The notes beneath the pieces were generated by a model. That model was not told the origin of the DNA and ran no database searches. It saw only the letters and a program-made list of their open reading frames with translations. A stretch of DNA of 64,000 nt from Planctomycetota bacterium (GTDB lineage Bacteria; Planctomycetota; UBA1135; GCA-002686595): the NCBI GenBank assembly GCA_016779205.1, contig JADHOC010000009.1:1-64000 (forward strand), given 5' to 3'. The translations under genes were made by a program, and so were the position numbers. This document shows positions 4,523 through 60,900 of this stretch, piece by piece; positions within the stretch are counted from its first letter, which is position 1; every line of letters starts with the position of its first letter.

Positions 4523-5116
4523 TCAGTCCGCGCCGCCGGGGAACCAGGGGGCGATGACCTCCCCGTCGGCCTCCTTGCCCTCCACGAAGCCCCCGCGCAG
4601 GGAGGCGGCGTAGGCGGATACCAGCACGATCTCGTTCATGCTCAGCTGGTCCTTCCAGGCGGGCATGCCCGCGGCGATGGAGCCGCCGATGACCGTGTCC
4701 GCCACGTCGGTGAGCTCGCGCACCCGGATGTAGTGGTCGTCGGTCAGGTTCGGGCCCGAGACGCCGGCGCCCTCGCTGCCGTGGCAGGACACGCAGTTGG
4801 TGGTGAAGATGGCCTGGCCCACCCGCAGCCAGCGAGCCTTCTCCGGGTCCGTCATGAACGCGCCCAGGGTGCCGGCGGTCGGGGTGAGGTTGCCGATCTC
4901 CGCGAACTGTGCCTGGAGCTCCGCGGTGACGGCGCGGTCGTAGCTCGCCGCAGGATCGGTGAGGTCGGGCCGGATCACCGCCAGGAAGAGGGACCCGAAG
5001 GCGAGCACCGCGGAGATCAGCGCCGCCACGGACCACCAACCGGGGAGGGGGTGGTTCCCCTCCTCGATCCCGTGGGCGGCGGGGCGGTGGCTGGGCTGCG
5101 GGTCGGTGTCGGGCAT
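4523..5116 (-). CDS. CcoP/FixP-like membrane-anchored monoheme cytochrome c
   Basis: This 197-residue protein has the N-terminus of cbb3 oxidase subunit III: an HGIEEGNHPLPGWW motif followed by one transmembrane helix at about residues 27-48. A periplasmic cytochrome c domain follows, with heme site C108-V-S-C111-H112 and a probable distal methionine at M151 (AAGMPAW). Classical CcoP has two c-type hemes; only one is present, and the length agrees with loss of one domain. It lies 55 bases downstream of the CcoNO-like fusion on the same strand, so both are probably made together. In a normal oxidase this subunit passes electrons from cytochrome bc1 or soluble cytochrome c towards subunit II. 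Its partner here has lost the oxidase ligands, so the terminal acceptor is unclear. Confidence 0.85.
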   Translation of the reverse strand: MPDTDPQPSHRPAAHGIEEGNHPLPGWWSVAALISAVLAFGSLFLAVIRPDLTDPAASYDRAVTAELQAQFAEIGNLTPTAGTLGAFMTDPEKARWLRVGQAIFTTNCVSCHGSEGAGVSGPNLTDDHYIRVRELTDVADTVIGGSIAAGMPAWKDQLSMNEIVLVSAYAASLRGGFVEGKEADGEVIAPWFPGGAD

Positions 5117-5171: not shown

Positions 5172-7439
5172 TCAGGGCTGCTCGTTATCGGCGGGAGAGG
5201 AGGGGTCGGCGGGATCGGAAGGATCGGCGGGCGCCTCGGACCGGGGGAGCCCGAGCTGCTGGAGGTAGGCCACCAGCGCGATGGCGTCCGAGCCCTCGAG
5301 GTCCACGGGGGCGCCGGCGCCGGGGCGCACGAGGGGGGCCCCGTTCTGGGCCTCGAACTCCGCGGTGAGGGCGGCGGCCTGGGCCGCGGCGTCCTCGGCG
5401 GCGACGGCGGGACGCTTCAGTTGACCGGAGCGGTGGACGAGGCGCGGGAGGTCCCGGGGTCGCTCGAGGAGGTGCCGGTACGAGGGCATCGCCGAGCCGG
5501 GGGAGACGGCGCGGGGGTCGTCGAGGTGCAGGACCTGCCAGCGGGTGGAGCGGCGGCCGCCCTCGCGGGCGAGGTCCGGGCCGACCCGGCGGGCGCCCCA
5601 CAGGGCCGGCCCGCCCTCGACGGGCTCCTCCGGCGCGCTGATGGCGCCGTAGCGCTTGGTGTCCGCGAGCAGGGGACGAACGGCCTGGGTGTGGCACGTG
5701 GCGCAGCCCTCGCGCTCGTACACCGAGCGACCGTAGGCCTCGAGGGGAGAGAGCGCGGCCCTGAGGCCGGGCTCCGCGCGCAGCAGGGGGCCGAGCTGGA
5801 TGGCCGCCACGGCGACCGCCGCCAGGACGATCCACCCGGCGAGCCGGACGGGCTGGCGCTCGAGGCGTCGGTGCCACCACAGGGTGCAGAAGACCTGGAG
5901 GCTCCGGCCCCAGTCGAGCACCGCACCCGCCGGCGGCGCCGGGGCGGCCTCGGCGGCGGCCATGGGCTCGAGGGGCGGCTCGGTCACCGGGGTGGCGTGG
6001 TAGGCCGAGGGTCGCGCGGCCCAGGTGCGGAGGAGGTTCCAGGCGCCCACCAGGGCCCCCGCGAGGAACAGCCCGAGCCCCGCCACGTGCAGGAGGCGGT
6101 GTCCCTCGACGCGCGTCACCGCGTCGGTGAACTCGGGGTGCAGGAGGTGGCCCTCCGGCGACAGCGCGCCGAGCACCCCCGCCTGGGCGGCGCCGCTGAA
6201 GCGCAGGGCGGCGGCGGAGGTGAGGACGCCGAGGGTGGCGAGCCAGAAGTGGGCGCGGGCGAGGGCGGGGGAATGCAGCGGCGCGTGGAGGATCCGCGGC
6301 GCGAGCCAGTAGGAGCCGGCGAACACCACGAAGGCGCCCCAGCCCAGCAGGAGCAGCTCCTGGTGCCCCTCCACCCAGTCGGTCGAGCCCACCGCGGCGC
6401 TCACCCGGCGCAGGGCGAGCACGGGGTCCTCGATGGCGGCGACGGCGAAGAAGAGCAGGGCCGCCACCAGGAACGGCCGGGCCGGCTCGCTCGAGGTCTC
6501 ATCGGGGCGCCCGTCGCGCAGGGTGGCGGCGAGGTTGAACACGCCGCTGGCGGACGGCAGCCAGACCAGGAAGGCGAAGGCGAGGGCGAGGGCGGAGAGC
6601 CAGCCGGGCGCGGGGGTCAAGTGCAGGTGGCGCGGCGCGACCCAGAGCTGGATCAGCAGCAGCGACCACAGGTGCACGATGGCCATGCGGTAGGAGTGCA
6701 GGGGCGCGGCGGCGAGGCGGGGCGCGAGGTCGTAGGCCACCCCGAAGAGGCCGATGACCACGAGGGCGCCCGCGCCGTTGCGCACGTACCACCACTGCAG
6801 GGCGGCGTCGGCGGCTCCGGCGAGGGGCGGGCTCCCCAGGAGCGGGTCGGGGAAGGACGCGAGGGCCGCCGCGACCTGGAGGCCGCCGAAGAGGAGGGTG
6901 GCCGCGAGGTAGAACCAGAGCGACGCGTACATGTAGCGCTGGCGCCGTCGGGTCAGCGTCACCAGGAGCTGCACGCCGAACACGGTCCAAAGGCCCGCCA
7001 GGGCGAGGTCCACCGGGGCCTCGGCCGGGGAGAGGAGCCGGGGCTCCAGGGCCCCGCCGGCGACGGTCCACGCGGCCCAGCCCAGCGCGAGCTGCCAGCC
7101 CCAGAGGTGGAGCGTGCCCAGGGCAGGGATGGCCATGGGCGCGCAGCACAGGCGCTGGGTCGAGTGGTGCACGAGGGCGAAGAAGCCGTTCCCGAGGAAC
7201 CCGAGGAGGACCAGCATCTCCGCCAGGGGCCGCAGGCGACCGAAGCCGAGGGCGGGGCGGCCGTCCGCCCATTCGGGGTGCAGCAGGCTCCAGCCGGCGA
7301 GGGCGGCGAGCGCCAGGGAGACGAGGCCCCAGGCCCAGCAGGCCGCCATGAAGCGGCGCGTCGGCCCGTCGTCGAGCCAGGGGCCGGTGGAACCCTCGGG
7401 GCGGGCCTCGTCGGTGGCTTGGCGGGGGGCGGCGGTCAT
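5172..7439 (-). CDS. CcoN-CcoO fusion-like protein, cbb3 oxidase scaffold lacking most heme/copper ligands
   Basis: The 755-residue protein fuses a polytopic CcoN-like part (about residues 30-475) to a CcoO-like part (about 505-755). Landmarks of cbb3 subunit I are easy to see: FGRLRP, QWWY, SYRMAIVHLW, HLHLT, STDW, GH, AHFWLATLG. The ligands are mostly gone. The low-spin heme His in RPLH is A73 and its partner in GHVH is E361. The CuB His of WWYGHN is R220, and the HH pair of GPHHLHY is R270-H271. The active-site Tyr is Q264. Only H359 and H271 remain. The CcoO part keeps heme site C579-A-T-C582-H583 and a likely Met ligand M651 (GSAMPSY). I expect a membrane electron-transfer protein, not an oxygen reductase. 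No assembly genes (ccoQ, ccoS, ccoG) are nearby. The fold assignment is strong; function is unknown. Confidence 0.85.
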   Translation of the reverse strand: MTAAPRQATDEARPEGSTGPWLDDGPTRRFMAACWAWGLVSLALAALAGWSLLHPEWADGRPALGFGRLRPLAEMLVLLGFLGNGFFALVHHSTQRLCCAPMAIPALGTLHLWGWQLALGWAAWTVAGGALEPRLLSPAEAPVDLALAGLWTVFGVQLLVTLTRRRQRYMYASLWFYLAATLLFGGLQVAAALASFPDPLLGSPPLAGAADAALQWWYVRNGAGALVVIGLFGVAYDLAPRLAAAPLHSYRMAIVHLWSLLLIQLWVAPRHLHLTPAPGWLSALALAFAFLVWLPSASGVFNLAATLRDGRPDETSSEPARPFLVAALLFFAVAAIEDPVLALRRVSAAVGSTDWVEGHQELLLLGWGAFVVFAGSYWLAPRILHAPLHSPALARAHFWLATLGVLTSAAALRFSGAAQAGVLGALSPEGHLLHPEFTDAVTRVEGHRLLHVAGLGLFLAGALVGAWNLLRTWAARPSAYHATPVTEPPLEPMAAAEAAPAPPAGAVLDWGRSLQVFCTLWWHRRLERQPVRLAGWIVLAAVAVAAIQLGPLLRAEPGLRAALSPLEAYGRSVYEREGCATCHTQAVRPLLADTKRYGAISAPEEPVEGGPALWGARRVGPDLAREGGRRSTRWQVLHLDDPRAVSPGSAMPSYRHLLERPRDLPRLVHRSGQLKRPAVAAEDAAAQAAALTAEFEAQNGAPLVRPGAGAPVDLEGSDAIALVAYLQQLGLPRSEAPADPSDPADPSSPADNEQP

Positions 7440-8808: not shown

Positions 8809-9369
8809 CTAGGCCTCGAGCAGGCCCTGGGAAGAGACCCATCGTGCCACGGGGCCTCGGTGACCGTGAGCGCTTGCCGGCGCATCCTTGGCGGCCTCCA
8901 GGAACGGGTCCATGACGACCTTCGACTCCTCGAGCTCCCCGTCCACCGTGTCCCAGGCCTTGAGGTCGGTGAGGACCCCGTCGTCGACCCGGGCGATGAG
9001 CTGGGTCCAGCCTGGCTGGCTCCCCTCGGTGTCGAGCCGGCTCGGGCTGGCCGGCTGCCGGGGGTGGCTGTGCCAGACCCCGAGAATCTCGAGCCCGTCC
9101 GCGCCCGTGTGCTGCGCCTGACGCATCAGGTGAACGGGGTCGAGGAAGAAGCGGTCGGGCTCCTCGGCGAGGTTCTTCGCGATGGTGAGGCGTCGCACCT
9201 GTCGCTCCCCGCGGACCACCTCACCCAGCAGGACCCCGCAGGCCTCCCTGGGTGCGGTCTCGACGGAGGCTCGGGTGAGGCGGATCACATGGCCTGGGGC
9301 CAGAACAAGAGGGGCTTGGGCGAGCGGGGGCATAGGAAGACACAGGTAGGGAAGCTCGAGCGGGATCAA
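8809..9369 (-). CDS. JAMM/MPN+ metalloprotease-fold protein
   Basis: This 186-residue protein has a complete JAMM zinc site: E42 in REACGVLLGE, then H100-S-H102, seven residues, S110 and D113 (HSHPRQPASPSRLD), matching HxHx7SxxD exactly. Bacterial members include Mec-type peptidases that process sulfur-carrier proteins in cysteine or cofactor synthesis, but no sulfur carrier or ThiF-like gene is present here, so the substrate is unknown. The start codon overlaps the stop of the upstream dipeptidase gene (ATGA), which implies translational coupling. A methionine at residue 13 is an alternative start. No signal peptide is evident. The C-terminal 40 residues are outside the core fold. Confidence 0.8.
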   Translation of the reverse strand: MIPLELPYLCLPMPPLAQAPLVLAPGHVIRLTRASVETAPREACGVLLGEVVRGERQVRRLTIAKNLAEEPDRFFLDPVHLMRQAQHTGADGLEILGVWHSHPRQPASPSRLDTEGSQPGWTQLIARVDDGVLTDLKAWDTVDGELEESKVVMDPFLEAAKDAPASAHGHRGPVARWVSSQGLLEA

Positions 9370-11510
9370 TCGCTCTCGGGCTCGGAGGTCGCGCTCGCGA
9401 CCTCCTCGACGGCACGCCAGACGCGGAGGGTGTTCCCGGACCAGATCTTGCGGATCTGATCCTCGGAGTAGCCTCGGCGTACGAGCTCCAGCGTGACGTT
9501 GAAGGTCTGGCTGGCGTCGCTCCAGCCCTCGACGCCGCCGCCGCCGTCGAAGTCGGAGCTGATGGCCACGTGGTCCACACCGATGCGACGGACGGCGTGG
9601 TCGATGTGATCCACGAAATCACGGACGTTGGCCCGCTCGCGGGCCTCGTCGAAGGCGCGGACGCGGTCGCGGAGCTCCCGGTTCAGGGCGCGCACCTCCG
9701 GGTCGGAGCTCGCGGGGCGGCTGCCCTGCTGCGGCGGGAGCCCGAGCTCCTCCCGGGTCCGACGGATGAAGCCCCGGCGGTCTCCGTCGTCCTTCACGTA
9801 GCTCGCGAATGCCACGCACTGGACCACGCCGCCGTTGGCTTTGAGCGCGTCGAGCTCCGCGTCGCTCAGGTTCCGCCCGTGGAGCCGGACGGCGTCCACG
9901 CCGGAGTGGGAGGCGATCACCGGGGCCTTCGAGTGGGCGATGGCCTCGAGGCTGGTCTTCTCGGAGGCGTGGGAGATGTCGACCATGATCCCCACGCGGT
10001 TCATCTCCTCGATGGCGCGGCGCCCGAGGTCCGAGAGCCCGCCGTGCAGCGGCTCGTCCGCCGGCGTGTTGGAGTCGCCGAGCTGGCTGTGCTTGTTGTG
10101 GGTGAGGCTCATGTACCGAGCCCCTCGACGGTGGAACGTCTCGATGGCCGAGAGGTCCTCTCCCATGGCGTAGCCGTTCTCGATGCCGATGCAGGCCACG
10201 AGCTTGCCCTCGGCGGCGAAGCGCTCCACGTCGGCCGCGCTCCGCGCCAGGCCGATGTGCTCGGGGAACCGCTCCGCCATGCGCTCGATGGCGTCGAACT
10301 TGGCGTCCGCGGCGGCCCGCGCCCGGGCGAAGGCCTCGGGGGTGAGGTCGCCCTGCCCGACGTAGACGATGAAGAAGGCGACATCGAGCCCGCCGCTGCG
10401 CATCTTCGGGAAGTCCACCTGGTTGCGGCCCCAGACCCGCGGGTCGTTGCGGACGAGGAAGCGCCGCAGGGCGGCGGGGTCCTCGGGGATCTCGGTGGAG
10501 GCCAGGGAGGCGGAGATGTCCTTGTGGGTGTCCAGGGTCAACGCCGACGAGTGGATGGCGCGCGCCCGCGCGAGGACGGCGGCGTCCGGCCCGGCGTCCA
10601 GGATCCAGCAGCCGTGGGCGTCCGGGAGCGCAAGGCGGCTCTGCTCCTCGAGGTCCGCGCCGAGCTCCACGGCCAGGAGGCCAGGGGCGCCGTCGAGTCG
10701 TGTTCCGGTCAGGGCCCAGCCGTCCACGCCCGGGAGGCCGCTCTGCTGGATCGGCCGGAGGTGGAGCACGGCCCCGAGGCCCAGGGCGCGGATCGCCTCC
10801 GGGGCGAGGACGGTCTCCTCGGCCACGCGGTCTGGACCCCAGGCGTGCACCGCCATCAGCGCGCCGTCCGCGCGGATCCCGGCCCAGCCGTCCCCCGTGG
10901 CCACGGCATGGCGCAGGGGCTCGGCGGGCGATCGGCCTCGGGTCGTGAGGGTCTCATGGTCCACGACCTCGAACTCGCCTGTGCCGCGGTCCACCAGGAG
11001 TCGCTCCCCCGTTGGGCCCCCGTTGTCGAGGCCGAGGTCCTGGAGCTGGTCGGTGGCGAGCCCGCTGTCCATCGGAGGGGCGAGCAGGCGAGAGCCCGCC
11101 CACAGCGGGCCTGCCGCCTCCACCGTCGTTCGCTGACCGAGGCGGTCGATGAGCTGAAGCCGGCCGGCGGAGACCACCGCGAGTCGACCGTCCGGGAGGA
11201 GCGTGAACGACTCCGCGGCGGCGTCGGAGAGGCTCCATACGCGGAGGCCATCGGCGCCCCGGTGTTCGGCGAGGGCCCCGCCGGGCTCGAGCACGATCAG
11301 GTTCCCGTTGGGGAGCCCCTGGACCTCGCGGGCCCGCGCTGCGACCTCGACGGTGATCCCATCGGAGGCCTCGCCGCCGGTGGAGGCGATGGTGAGGACC
11401 TCCGCCCCGTCCACCAGGCGCAGCGCGGCGACGCGCAGGTCCGTGGGGGGCGCGGCCGGGGCCGCCAGAGGGGCAGCCGACAGGGACAGGACACAGAGCA
11501 GGGCCGTCAT
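9366..11510 (-). CDS. Secreted M19 (renal-type) dipeptidase with N-terminal propeller-like region
   Basis: The 714-residue protein begins with a signal peptide (MTALLCVLSLSAAPLAAPAA). Residues about 25-310 form repeated short beta-rich units with NGN, PDGRL and ADGALM turns, like a beta-propeller. The peptidase M19 domain occupies about 320-700. Its binuclear zinc ligands are visible: H329 and D331 in DTHKD, Glu in GIENGYAMG, His in VDISHAS, His in IASHSGV and Asp in AISSDFDGGGG. The family hydrolyses dipeptides, including some with D-residues. Typical M19 enzymes are 350-420 residues, so the N-terminal 300 residues are an addition. The gene overlaps the JAMM gene by 4 bases and is transcribed away from the FG-GAP gene across a 123-base divergent gap. 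Confidence 0.85.
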   Translation of the reverse strand: MTALLCVLSLSAAPLAAPAAPPTDLRVAALRLVDGAEVLTIASTGGEASDGITVEVAARAREVQGLPNGNLIVLEPGGALAEHRGADGLRVWSLSDAAAESFTLLPDGRLAVVSAGRLQLIDRLGQRTTVEAAGPLWAGSRLLAPPMDSGLATDQLQDLGLDNGGPTGERLLVDRGTGEFEVVDHETLTTRGRSPAEPLRHAVATGDGWAGIRADGALMAVHAWGPDRVAEETVLAPEAIRALGLGAVLHLRPIQQSGLPGVDGWALTGTRLDGAPGLLAVELGADLEEQSRLALPDAHGCWILDAGPDAAVLARARAIHSSALTLDTHKDISASLASTEIPEDPAALRRFLVRNDPRVWGRNQVDFPKMRSGGLDVAFFIVYVGQGDLTPEAFARARAAADAKFDAIERMAERFPEHIGLARSAADVERFAAEGKLVACIGIENGYAMGEDLSAIETFHRRGARYMSLTHNKHSQLGDSNTPADEPLHGGLSDLGRRAIEEMNRVGIMVDISHASEKTSLEAIAHSKAPVIASHSGVDAVRLHGRNLSDAELDALKANGGVVQCVAFASYVKDDGDRRGFIRRTREELGLPPQQGSRPASSDPEVRALNRELRDRVRAFDEARERANVRDFVDHIDHAVRRIGVDHVAISSDFDGGGGVEGWSDASQTFNVTLELVRRGYSEDQIRKIWSGNTLRVWRAVEEVASATSEPESD

Positions 11511-57998: not shown

Positions 57999-60900
57999 CT
58001 AATGCCCGGCGGCTGCTCCCTCGGTGCCCATGGCGACCTTGAACAGTTCTTCCTCGGTGGGGGACAGCTGGGGGGGCTCTTCGCCCGACTGTAGCTGGGC
58101 CAGCGCCTCGGCCAAGAGCCACATCGAACTACCCTTGGCCCGTCGATGGGCCCGGAAGGACTGCCAGATCCGCTCCCGGTGGTTCTCGGCGTATTCCGCT
58201 GCGCCCTCAAGGTCCCCCGCCTGGCGCAGCGAGACCCAGATCAGGCTGTGCGGTGTTTGCGTCCACCGGTAGGTGGGAACGTCGAGGCCTGCTGCCAAGC
58301 GCACGCTGAGCGTCATCTCGAGCGGGTGGTGGTCGGCCTCGTCGACCACATCGCCTGGATCGAGGGTGGAGAGGATCTGCTCGCCGTACTGCGCGGCCTC
58401 GGCGAAGCCCACGGTCTGAGCCAGGTGAATCATCTCCGCGGTCAGTGGCAGGCGTTCGTCCATGGCGAAGCTCCACTTGGTCTCAAGGCTCTCGTGCCCG
58501 GCGCTCAGGTCCCGGATCAGATCCATGTATCCACGGACCTCATCCGCCCTTCCACGACAGATGCTGAGTAAGAGGAGGTAGTGCGCGGTCGTCACCGCGG
58601 GGCTCCGGCCGATCGATTCCTCCTGCCGCATGAGCGCCTCGAGCTGCCACCTGAACTCCTCGTCGGCCTCCTCAAGTCGGCCCTGGTTCCTGAAGGCCTC
58701 GGCGAGGCCGCGGCGAGGGATGATGGCGTCGTGGTGTTCGGGGCCGAGAGCCTCCGCGTAGGCCGCGGCCATCTTGCGGTAGATCACCTCGGCTTCCTCG
58801 CAGTGACCGAGGGAGTTCAAGGTCACGGCAATGGCGGTCTCGAGGGACTGCATGGTCGGGCTGTCGGGCCGCTCCCATTTGGCGAAGGCGGCCTGGACGG
58901 CGCGGTAGTGGATCAGCGCCTCGGCGCTGCGGCCATCGTGCAAGAGCGACTCCGCCAGGCTCCACCGCGTCACGAGGGTGGTCCTCGAATCGGGACCGAG
59001 GACTTCTTCTGCGGCTGGAAGGAGCAGCTGAGCGAGTTCTAGCCTGGTCCATTCGGTCTCACGAAGCTCGTAGAGGAGCCCCCAGTTCAGGGTTCTCGCG
59101 AGCTGCGTGCCGGCGGCCAGGGTCCGGTAGTCGTAGAGGCCATGTCGGTCCCGGAGCTCCACGAAGGTCTCCTCGATGACGTCGAAGGCCTCCGTGTATC
59201 GGTGACGGTGGTGCAGGTAGCTTCCGAGGCTCCGGTTCAGGGCAAGGCGATCGTGGGCCGCCGCCGCTCCCCCCTCTTCCCGAAGATCCGCGATGAGCCC
59301 CGTGGCCATGGCGACGACATCGCCGTGTTTGGACTCGATACGTTCAATGTCCGAGGTCTCCTGGAGAATGCTATGGGCGTTGATGACTTCGAGAACGAAC
59401 CGGCAGCGCAGGTACAGCGGCTCGGTGCCGTCGAGTTCGGCGAGGTATGCGTCGCCGAATCGAGTGGCTTCTTCTCGAAACCTGCTCAGCCGGAGTGCCC
59501 GCAGGTGCTGCAGTCTGGCCCTTAGCAGCAGGTCCTGGGCGCCCTCCACGCCGAGCTCTCTGGCCGCGCTGGCGCGGTTGCAGCTATGCAGGAAGATGTC
59601 CACGGCCGCGTGCGTGTGGCCGAAGCGCATTCCAAAGTTACCCGCCGCAAGGGACTGCCTGGCAGCGGCCATTGGCCTCAGGATCCCCTGGTCTCTCGCA
59701 GAGGAAGCCATGGCCTCGACCAGGGCCAGCGTCTCGGAGCGGTCAATGGCGGATCCTGGGGCGAGGCTCGAGAGGAGGTTCTCGGCAGTGGCGAGGGTGG
59801 CATCCACTGCGACCTGGGACCTGGCAAGGGCCCGGTTGTTCCGGTTCAGTTCCTTCCGTTGTGCCTCGAGGTTGAACCAGGAATAGGTGGAGATCAAGAC
59901 GATGGCCGCCGTGGAGAGGATCGCCGTCGCTGCCACGGGGCGCCTGCGAGCGAGCTTCCTCAGCTTTCTCACCGCGCTGGCTGGGCGAGCCATGATGGGC
60001 TGGTACTTGAGGAAACGGTTGAGGTCATCCGCCAGGGCCGTCGCATTGGGGTAGCGGAGCTCGGGGTCCTTCTCGAGGGCGTGCATGCAGATCGTCTCGA
60101 GGTCCCGCGGGATCTCTGGCCTCACCTGCCGCGGAGTGGGCGGATCGGCGTGGAGAATCTGCTCATTGCCGGGTAGACCCTCCGTCGAAGGGGCGGCGCC
60201 CCACCAGGAGCTCGTAGATGGTGACCCCGAGGCTGAAGATGTCCGATCGCTCGTCGAGGGAGCCCGATTCACGGACCTGCTCGGGGGACCGGTAGAACGG
60301 GGTTCCGGCCCCGCTCCGAGAGGTGATCAGGGCGTCCCGGACGCGGAACGTGGCCAGCCCGAGGTCTGCGATGACAGGGTCGCCGGACGGACGTATCAGG
60401 ATGTTCGCTGGCTTGAGGTCCCGATGGATGATGCCGGCGGCGTGGAGGACGCCCAGTCCCCGGGCGATCCTTTCCAGGAACCGCGCGGCGAAGCGGGGAG
60501 TGAGATTGGGGAGGGCCTTGCGCTCATCCGCCAGGAGGTCCGTGACGGTGCGGCCCTCCTCCACGTACTCGGTCACGATGAAGTGCACCCCGCGATGGAA
60601 ACCCACGTCGTGAACGGCCAGAACGGCGGGGTGGGAGACGCTCCCGGCGATGGTGGACTCGCGCTTGAAGCGGGTGAGCTGCGTCTCCGAGAGCCCATGC
60701 TCGGGGAGGAGCACCTTGACGGCCACGTGACGCTAGATGGACTCGTCGAGCGCTCGCCAGACCGAGCTGGTGCTCCCGTGGCCGATCGGCTCCAGGAGTC
60801 GGTAACGGCCCAGGAGATCTCCTTTCGCGGGCAGGGTTCCGATCGCTCCGCGGTGCCGCCGGAGGCGGTGGATATCCTCGAGCATCCCCTCGACCTCCCG

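Follow-up and report, generated by a model that had tools for sequence, protein, structure and literature searches.

A planctomycete cbb3-related CcoNO fusion protein that has lost most metal ligands of subunit I

A fused CcoN-CcoO gene in the window (the whole stretch of 64,000 nucleotides that was analysed) encodes a protein that most likely descends from the cbb3 family and in which subunit I has other residues in place of its cross-link tyrosine and of four of the six histidines that bind metal. Six genomes of a single genus-level group carry such ligand-poor genes, and loss of the oxidase function is well supported. The reading that we favour, at a probability of roughly one half, is a pseudo-cbb3 complex in which a mostly cofactor-free CcoN would act as a scaffold that supports two c hemes at the membrane. 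It is supported by the lost ligands, the retained heme c motifs, purifying selection and cbb3 maturation genes that were not found in the six genomes.

Gene and locus organisation

The features referred to below were the following.
5172..7439, minus strand: CcoN-CcoO-like fusion of 755 aa with an ATG start (open reading frame, Pfam, alignment).
6000..7358, minus strand: CcoN (subunit I) part, approximately residues 28-480 (Pfam, alignment, and a model with some 12 long helices there); notable positions A73, E74, R220, D237, Q264, R270, H271, D338, E357, H359 and E361.
5250..5873, minus strand: CcoO (FixO) part (Pfam, alignment, model).
4523..5116, minus strand: CcoP-like single-heme cytochrome c of 197 aa, downstream of CcoNO and on the same strand.

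Pfam matched COX1 to residues 28-418 of the fusion protein (E 2.1e-53) and FixO to residues 523-730 (E 1.1e-44). The CcoO part featured a helix at residues 530-554, a CATCH heme c motif (C579, C582, H583) and the conserved M651, while the CcoP-like protein had a CVSCH motif and the sequence HPLPGWW close to its amino end. Its single heme c motif was likewise seen in the aligned intact relatives. The upstream neighbour of the pair is an ornithine cyclodeaminase-like gene (TIGR00300) and the downstream neighbour an M14 peptidase gene. Elsewhere in the window (9366-11510), a protein whose residues 320-699 match a membrane dipeptidase (M19) domain has a long amino-terminal extension free of Pfam matches at 0.001.

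Loss of metal ligands in subunit I

A sequence-only reading of this DNA had the protein aligning with CcoN across its membrane part, and phmmer against P. stutzeri CcoN (3mk7_A) confirmed this, with residues 27-483 aligned at E 3.4e-71 and FGRLRP, QWWY, VHLW and STDW all present. The ligand positions were gap-free on both sides. MAFFT agreed exactly with the replacements and retentions that had been listed, A73, R220, Q264, R270, H271, H359 and E361 corresponding to H60, H207, Y251, H257, H258, H345 and H347. The replacements relative to P. stutzeri were H60A, H207R, Y251Q, H257R and H347E, while H258 and H345 were kept. H60 and H347 are presumably the heme b ligands and H345 the heme b3 ligand. 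The CuB ligands are H207, H257 and H258 (PMC3578206). Two of the six histidines of the cbb3 metal signature were thus retained in the window protein and one in G076, the sixth member of the group. Glutamine (Q264) occupied the position of the tyrosine Y251 in the other five species and alanine in G076, and A73 and E361 stood in place of the low-spin heme histidine pair by which NO reductases and NO dismutases are recognised. The tryptophan W216 (W203 in P. stutzeri) was retained in the five species. Local read errors at the ligand codons are very unlikely because five separate genomes share the pattern and the codons of R220 and R270 vary synonymously among the species (CGC, CGG or CGT) with arginine constant.

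Profile scores fell in all parts of the complex. The window protein and G076 scored 516.3 and 747.2 with the NCBIfam fusion model (cut-off 1080), 258.7 and 376.5 with ccoN (cut-off 583.15), and 125.2 and 157.5 with ccoO (cut-off 200.65), whereas the intact relatives L043 and L045 exceeded all three cut-offs. Scores with FixP_N, the model of the CcoP amino-terminal region, were 20.7 for the window and 23.3 for G076 against a cut-off of 24.9, compared with 62.8 for the intact L043. Pfam, which presumably includes an NnrS model, gave no NnrS match for the window protein at E values up to 10. Having lost most of the six histidines as well as the tyrosine, and missing the NCBIfam cut-offs, the ligand-poor protein should not be filed as a cbb3 oxidase.

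Distribution among relatives

The same pattern was present in five species of one genus-level group (G000, G077, G073, G078 and G074), among which only the H60 position varied across the seven sites, being alanine or valine. The sixth member of that group, G076, had S, N, A, H, P, G and Q at the seven positions, so that five of six histidines and the tyrosine were lost. Two further members, G071 and G075, had an intact CcoN or CcoNO, and CcoNO was not found in G072. Homologues with the histidines in the same clade, which the sequence-only reading had named as evidence against itself, therefore exist at the genus level but not inside the six-member branch.

In total, 135 rows were read, comprising the six ligand-poor rows, 122 keeping all seven positions (two sets of 84 and 38, all legible at every position) and seven that were truncated or misframed. 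Four of the latter showed all four ligand motifs and L127 three of the four, while L113 and L123 were cut off and intact where read. Six ligand-poor rows set against 122 fully legible rows that keep all seven positions exclude chance. In the class search 112 of 154 genomes gave a match, and the rows were taken among the matches listed, with some fragments left unread. The phylum draw covered 392 genomes, 100 of them matching at 1e-40, and reading covered 30 loci, some of which repeated those of the class, plus 40 selected stretches; this phylum was the scope of the search. The sequence-only reading had suggested testing whether the substitutions recur across planctomycetes. Among the matches listed they were confined to the six genomes of one genus-level group, and a planctomycete-wide ligand loss was rejected, being absent from the 122 readable relatives.

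Several other divergent CcoN-like genes were seen during this survey. G071 carries a second one (L046:5217-10193) with all seven ligand residues intact, adjoined by genes for a cytochrome c and a P-type ATPase. L128, L129 and L133 have all seven residues and a W203 to glycine change resembling the W203G of Nitrospina. L177, L178, L179, L181, L182 and L183 belong to the same family and keep all seven, with PGH/AGH-R..H and FIHD instead of FGRLRPLH and YGHN, and are possibly another oxidase or NO reductase type.

Origin of the ligand-poor branch

Trees were built from the six ligand-poor rows and 37 of 71 intact rows. With the ligand columns omitted, the six formed one branch (100/99) in the 43-row tree, which contains long branches, and they also grouped together with the CcoN part alone (99/96) and the CcoO part alone (99/94). 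The stem branch was very long at 4.75 changes per column. In a test for long-branch attraction, the window clade run without L015 was a very long, weakly placed branch (33/0), nearest by path to L069 and not to L012, whereas L015 run without the window clade joined L012, of the same genus, at 100/97; when both were included they joined each other. A single origin of the ligand loss is the best supported history on these trees, and two separate losses are possible because the window clade and L015 place differently when run apart.

Selection and sequence change

Subunit I is still under purifying selection. In a Nei-Gojobori count over the ten pairs of the five species, the CcoN part gave dN/dS values of 0.13-0.18 and the CcoO part values of 0.15-0.30, and the frames were open in all six ligand-poor genes. 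The c-type heme sites of CcoO and CcoP retained CxxCH and methionine, a CcoP homologue with both adjoined every one of the six genes, and the CcoNO-CcoP gene order was maintained throughout. Among positions at least 97% conserved across the 71 intact relatives, CcoN of the five species retained 72 of 150 and their CcoO part 35 of 42, CxxCH and methionine included, and G076 retained 88 of 150 and 36 of 42, respectively. CcoN thus bears most of the loss but not all of it, since the CcoO part and FixP_N fall below cut-offs that intact relatives pass. Three conserved CcoO residues were lost in both branches (E548Q, D572 and H635).

A relic on its way out, left functionless and decaying as an operon after the loss of its oxidase, would account for the very long stem, the missing maturation genes described below, the lowered CcoO and CcoP-N scores and the drift of the ligand-poor CcoN part to more alanine and leucine and fewer aromatics. 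We consider it rather unlikely, given the open frames, the low dN/dS of the CcoN part, the intact heme c motifs and the conserved gene order. Filling of the heme space by bulkier side chains was considered and rejected, as the summed residue volume of CcoN was smaller and not larger. The 71 intact relatives averaged 63,697 cubic angstroms (sd 437), against 62,068 for G076 and approximately 59,800-60,600 for the five species.

Of the 453 CcoN-part positions, 351 (77.5%) were invariant among the five species, so single conserved residues prove little. This bears on H271 and H359, which we take to be the former CuB and b3 ligands. One heme might still bind, as both are kept in all five species together with W216, and they could clamp a six-coordinate bis-histidine heme in a membrane cytochrome or a redox or gas sensor. 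Such a single-heme relay or sensor is nevertheless unlikely: at this level of invariance the two histidines carry no significance, both low-spin heme ligands are gone, and an electron would have to make a long jump from the CcoO heme. The claim that H271 and H359 remain held for the five species and not for G076, which has proline and glycine there, so their retention is not general to the group.

The five species had gained charge at 12 CcoN positions in all. Six of these (E74, R220, D237, R270, D/E338 and E361) were invariant and other than D, E, K or R across the 71 intact relatives, and E337 was kept beside them. Nine other charged positions were lost, including two invariant glutamates (the E135 and E138 sites). 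A metal-free interior converted into a polar pathway for ions or protons, lined by these new charges, is suggested by the gains and by E337. It is quite improbable in view of the nine losses and of G076, which has none of D, E, K and R at the six sites. Residues that we assume to belong to the K-channel of CcoN, T215 and Y251 among them, were moreover partly replaced (T215V, Y251Q), and the charge pairs may simply brace helices.

Structure model

An AlphaFold2 model from 106 rows (pLDDT 89.3, pTM 0.91) returned the CcoN fold that the sequence-only reading would lead one to expect, its CcoN part being made up of approximately 12 long helices. The top matches in a Foldseek search were seven chains of cbb3 CcoN, with TM scores of 0.93-0.96 normalised by target length. 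As the 106 rows were mostly intact oxidases that guided the prediction, the good model indicates compatibility with the fold and is not an independent proof; a six-row model was poor (pLDDT 46.9). One of the seven matched structures, 9g83, is by its title a supercomplex with both CIV and cbb3 and offers a precedent for such company.

Accessory genes and the respiratory chain

The maturation-gene survey consisted of CcoG, CcoI and FixH. CcoG and CcoI, the latter at E 1e-40, were each found in none of the six ligand-poor genomes and in both congeners with an intact CcoN (G071 and G075). FixH was likewise found in none of the six and in one of the two intact congeners, G071. The CcoI search at this threshold also returned a distant ATPase in G072. 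The six genomes were 82-90.5% complete, so that a single absence means little while six joint absences are telling. That the complex is still an oxidoreductase with unusual ligands has a related case in putative NO dismutases, in which one histidine is changed to asparagine (PMC3413370). It is highly improbable, given that the tyrosine and all but one or two of the six histidines were lost and that the maturation genes were not found in the six genomes.

In G071 the maturation genes adjoin the intact CcoNO and CcoP, along with an Rrf2 regulator gene. Intact cbb3 oxidases are tied to redox signalling in Rhodobacter, and with its c-heme motifs kept the ligand-poor complex could conceivably sense electron flow through the c hemes and inform a regulator. 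This appears improbable, as a regulator gene was not recognised among the four neighbouring genes scanned and an Rrf2 gene like that beside the intact operon of G071 was not seen at the window locus.

The window genome encodes a second COX1, which at 681.3 scores above the cut-off of 670.75 for cytochrome c oxidase subunit I and clusters with COX2, COX3 and alternative complex III genes (five-CxxCH cytochrome, NrfD and ActD). The label caa3 for this oxidase reflects one CxxCH motif in the COX2 protein, in which the Pfam cytochrome c domain was absent at 0.001. Such a COX1 was present in five of the six ligand-poor genomes and was not found in G073 (82% complete). Of the two bc-type cytochrome b models, PF13631 and PF00033, the search used the first, which matched none of the nine genus members compared with eight of 14 control genomes, and within that scope alternative complex III was the sole quinol:cytochrome c reductase found. 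Cytochrome bd was found in G071 alone, the six ligand-poor genomes giving no match. The CcoNO gene lies outside the alternative complex III-caa3 cluster, between the ornithine cyclodeaminase-like and M14 peptidase genes.

A proposed pseudo-cbb3 complex

Taken with the ligand loss, these observations point to a pseudo-cbb3 complex predicted to be incapable of oxygen reduction. Its CcoN, mostly free of cofactors, would hold and orient the c hemes of CcoO and CcoP in the membrane, and the new charges E74, R220, D237, R270, D/E338 and E361 may replace the former metal cross-bracing between helices. Alternative complex III would feed electrons into CcoO and CcoP, which would pass them on to the caa3 oxidase or to some other acceptor in the periplasm, so that the whole would be a membrane-bound cytochrome c module and no oxygen reductase. 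Such a complex probably serves the alternative complex III-caa3 chain, its electron partners being putative. The place of the gene outside the cluster for that chain counts against this explanation, as do the lowered CcoO and CcoP scores, the lost CcoO residues and the retention of H271 and H359 in the five species, where one heme might still bind. Bracing by salt bridges is weakened by G076, which has none of the six charges, and by the nine charges lost in the five species. The fullest form of the proposal, in which a metal-free CcoN with a buried salt-bridge network would connect c-type cytochromes to a supercomplex of alternative complex III and caa3 as the first described pseudo-heme-copper oxidase, is put forward tentatively and may well not hold in all its parts.

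The sequence-only reading had proposed a new function as an electron relay, a structural scaffold or a partner of another enzyme. The scaffold and the partner fit the kept fold, cytochrome c and selection, while a relay through subunit I is less likely given the loss of both ligands of low-spin heme b. A lineage without most of the histidine sextet and yet under selection would show that an oxidase scaffold is useful beyond oxygen reduction, and what the CcoN frame and the accessory subunits with their c hemes do on their own becomes testable. There is also a warning for annotation. With Pfam matches to COX1 and FixO, the ligand-poor gene could be counted as a high-affinity oxidase and a sign of low-oxygen respiration, which it most likely is not; the stricter NCBIfam cut-offs, unlike Pfam, exclude it.

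Comparison with known systems

A description of a ligand-poor CcoN was not found in the open-licence literature among the matches listed. The ligand-poor group shares its subunit make-up, fold, fused CcoN and CcoO, CcoP partner and heme c motifs with the cbb3-type cytochrome c oxidases of the C-family (CcoNO fusion type), with which it clusters in sequence and structure. Unlike them it lacks four or five of six histidines and Y251, the maturation genes were not found in its six genomes and the family cut-offs are missed.

The fused cbb3 of Nitrospina gracilis also has an unusual residue at the copper site, W203 being replaced by glycine, and has been treated as a terminal oxidase (PMC3578206), whereas the five species keep this tryptophan and lose histidines instead. 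The orphan CcoN4 of Pseudomonas aeruginosa is likewise divergent and a partner of CcoO and CcoP, and it is part of Cco isoforms functional in biofilms (PMC5697931); the main text of that report uses neither the word histidine nor the word ligand.

Outside the cbb3 oxidases, type 1 opsins that lack the canonical retinal binding site, an unrelated family, are a further case of a membrane fold outliving its cofactor site (PMC4915679). Another parallel is offered by the NO dismutases or divergent qNOR, also of the heme-copper oxidase superfamily, of which the histidine sextet is a signature, and in which an altered metal ligand, one coordinating histidine changed to asparagine, accompanies a proposed new activity (PMC3413370). 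Compared with that one changed histidine, the ligand-poor CcoN has lost four or five of the six while its separate c-heme subunits stay.
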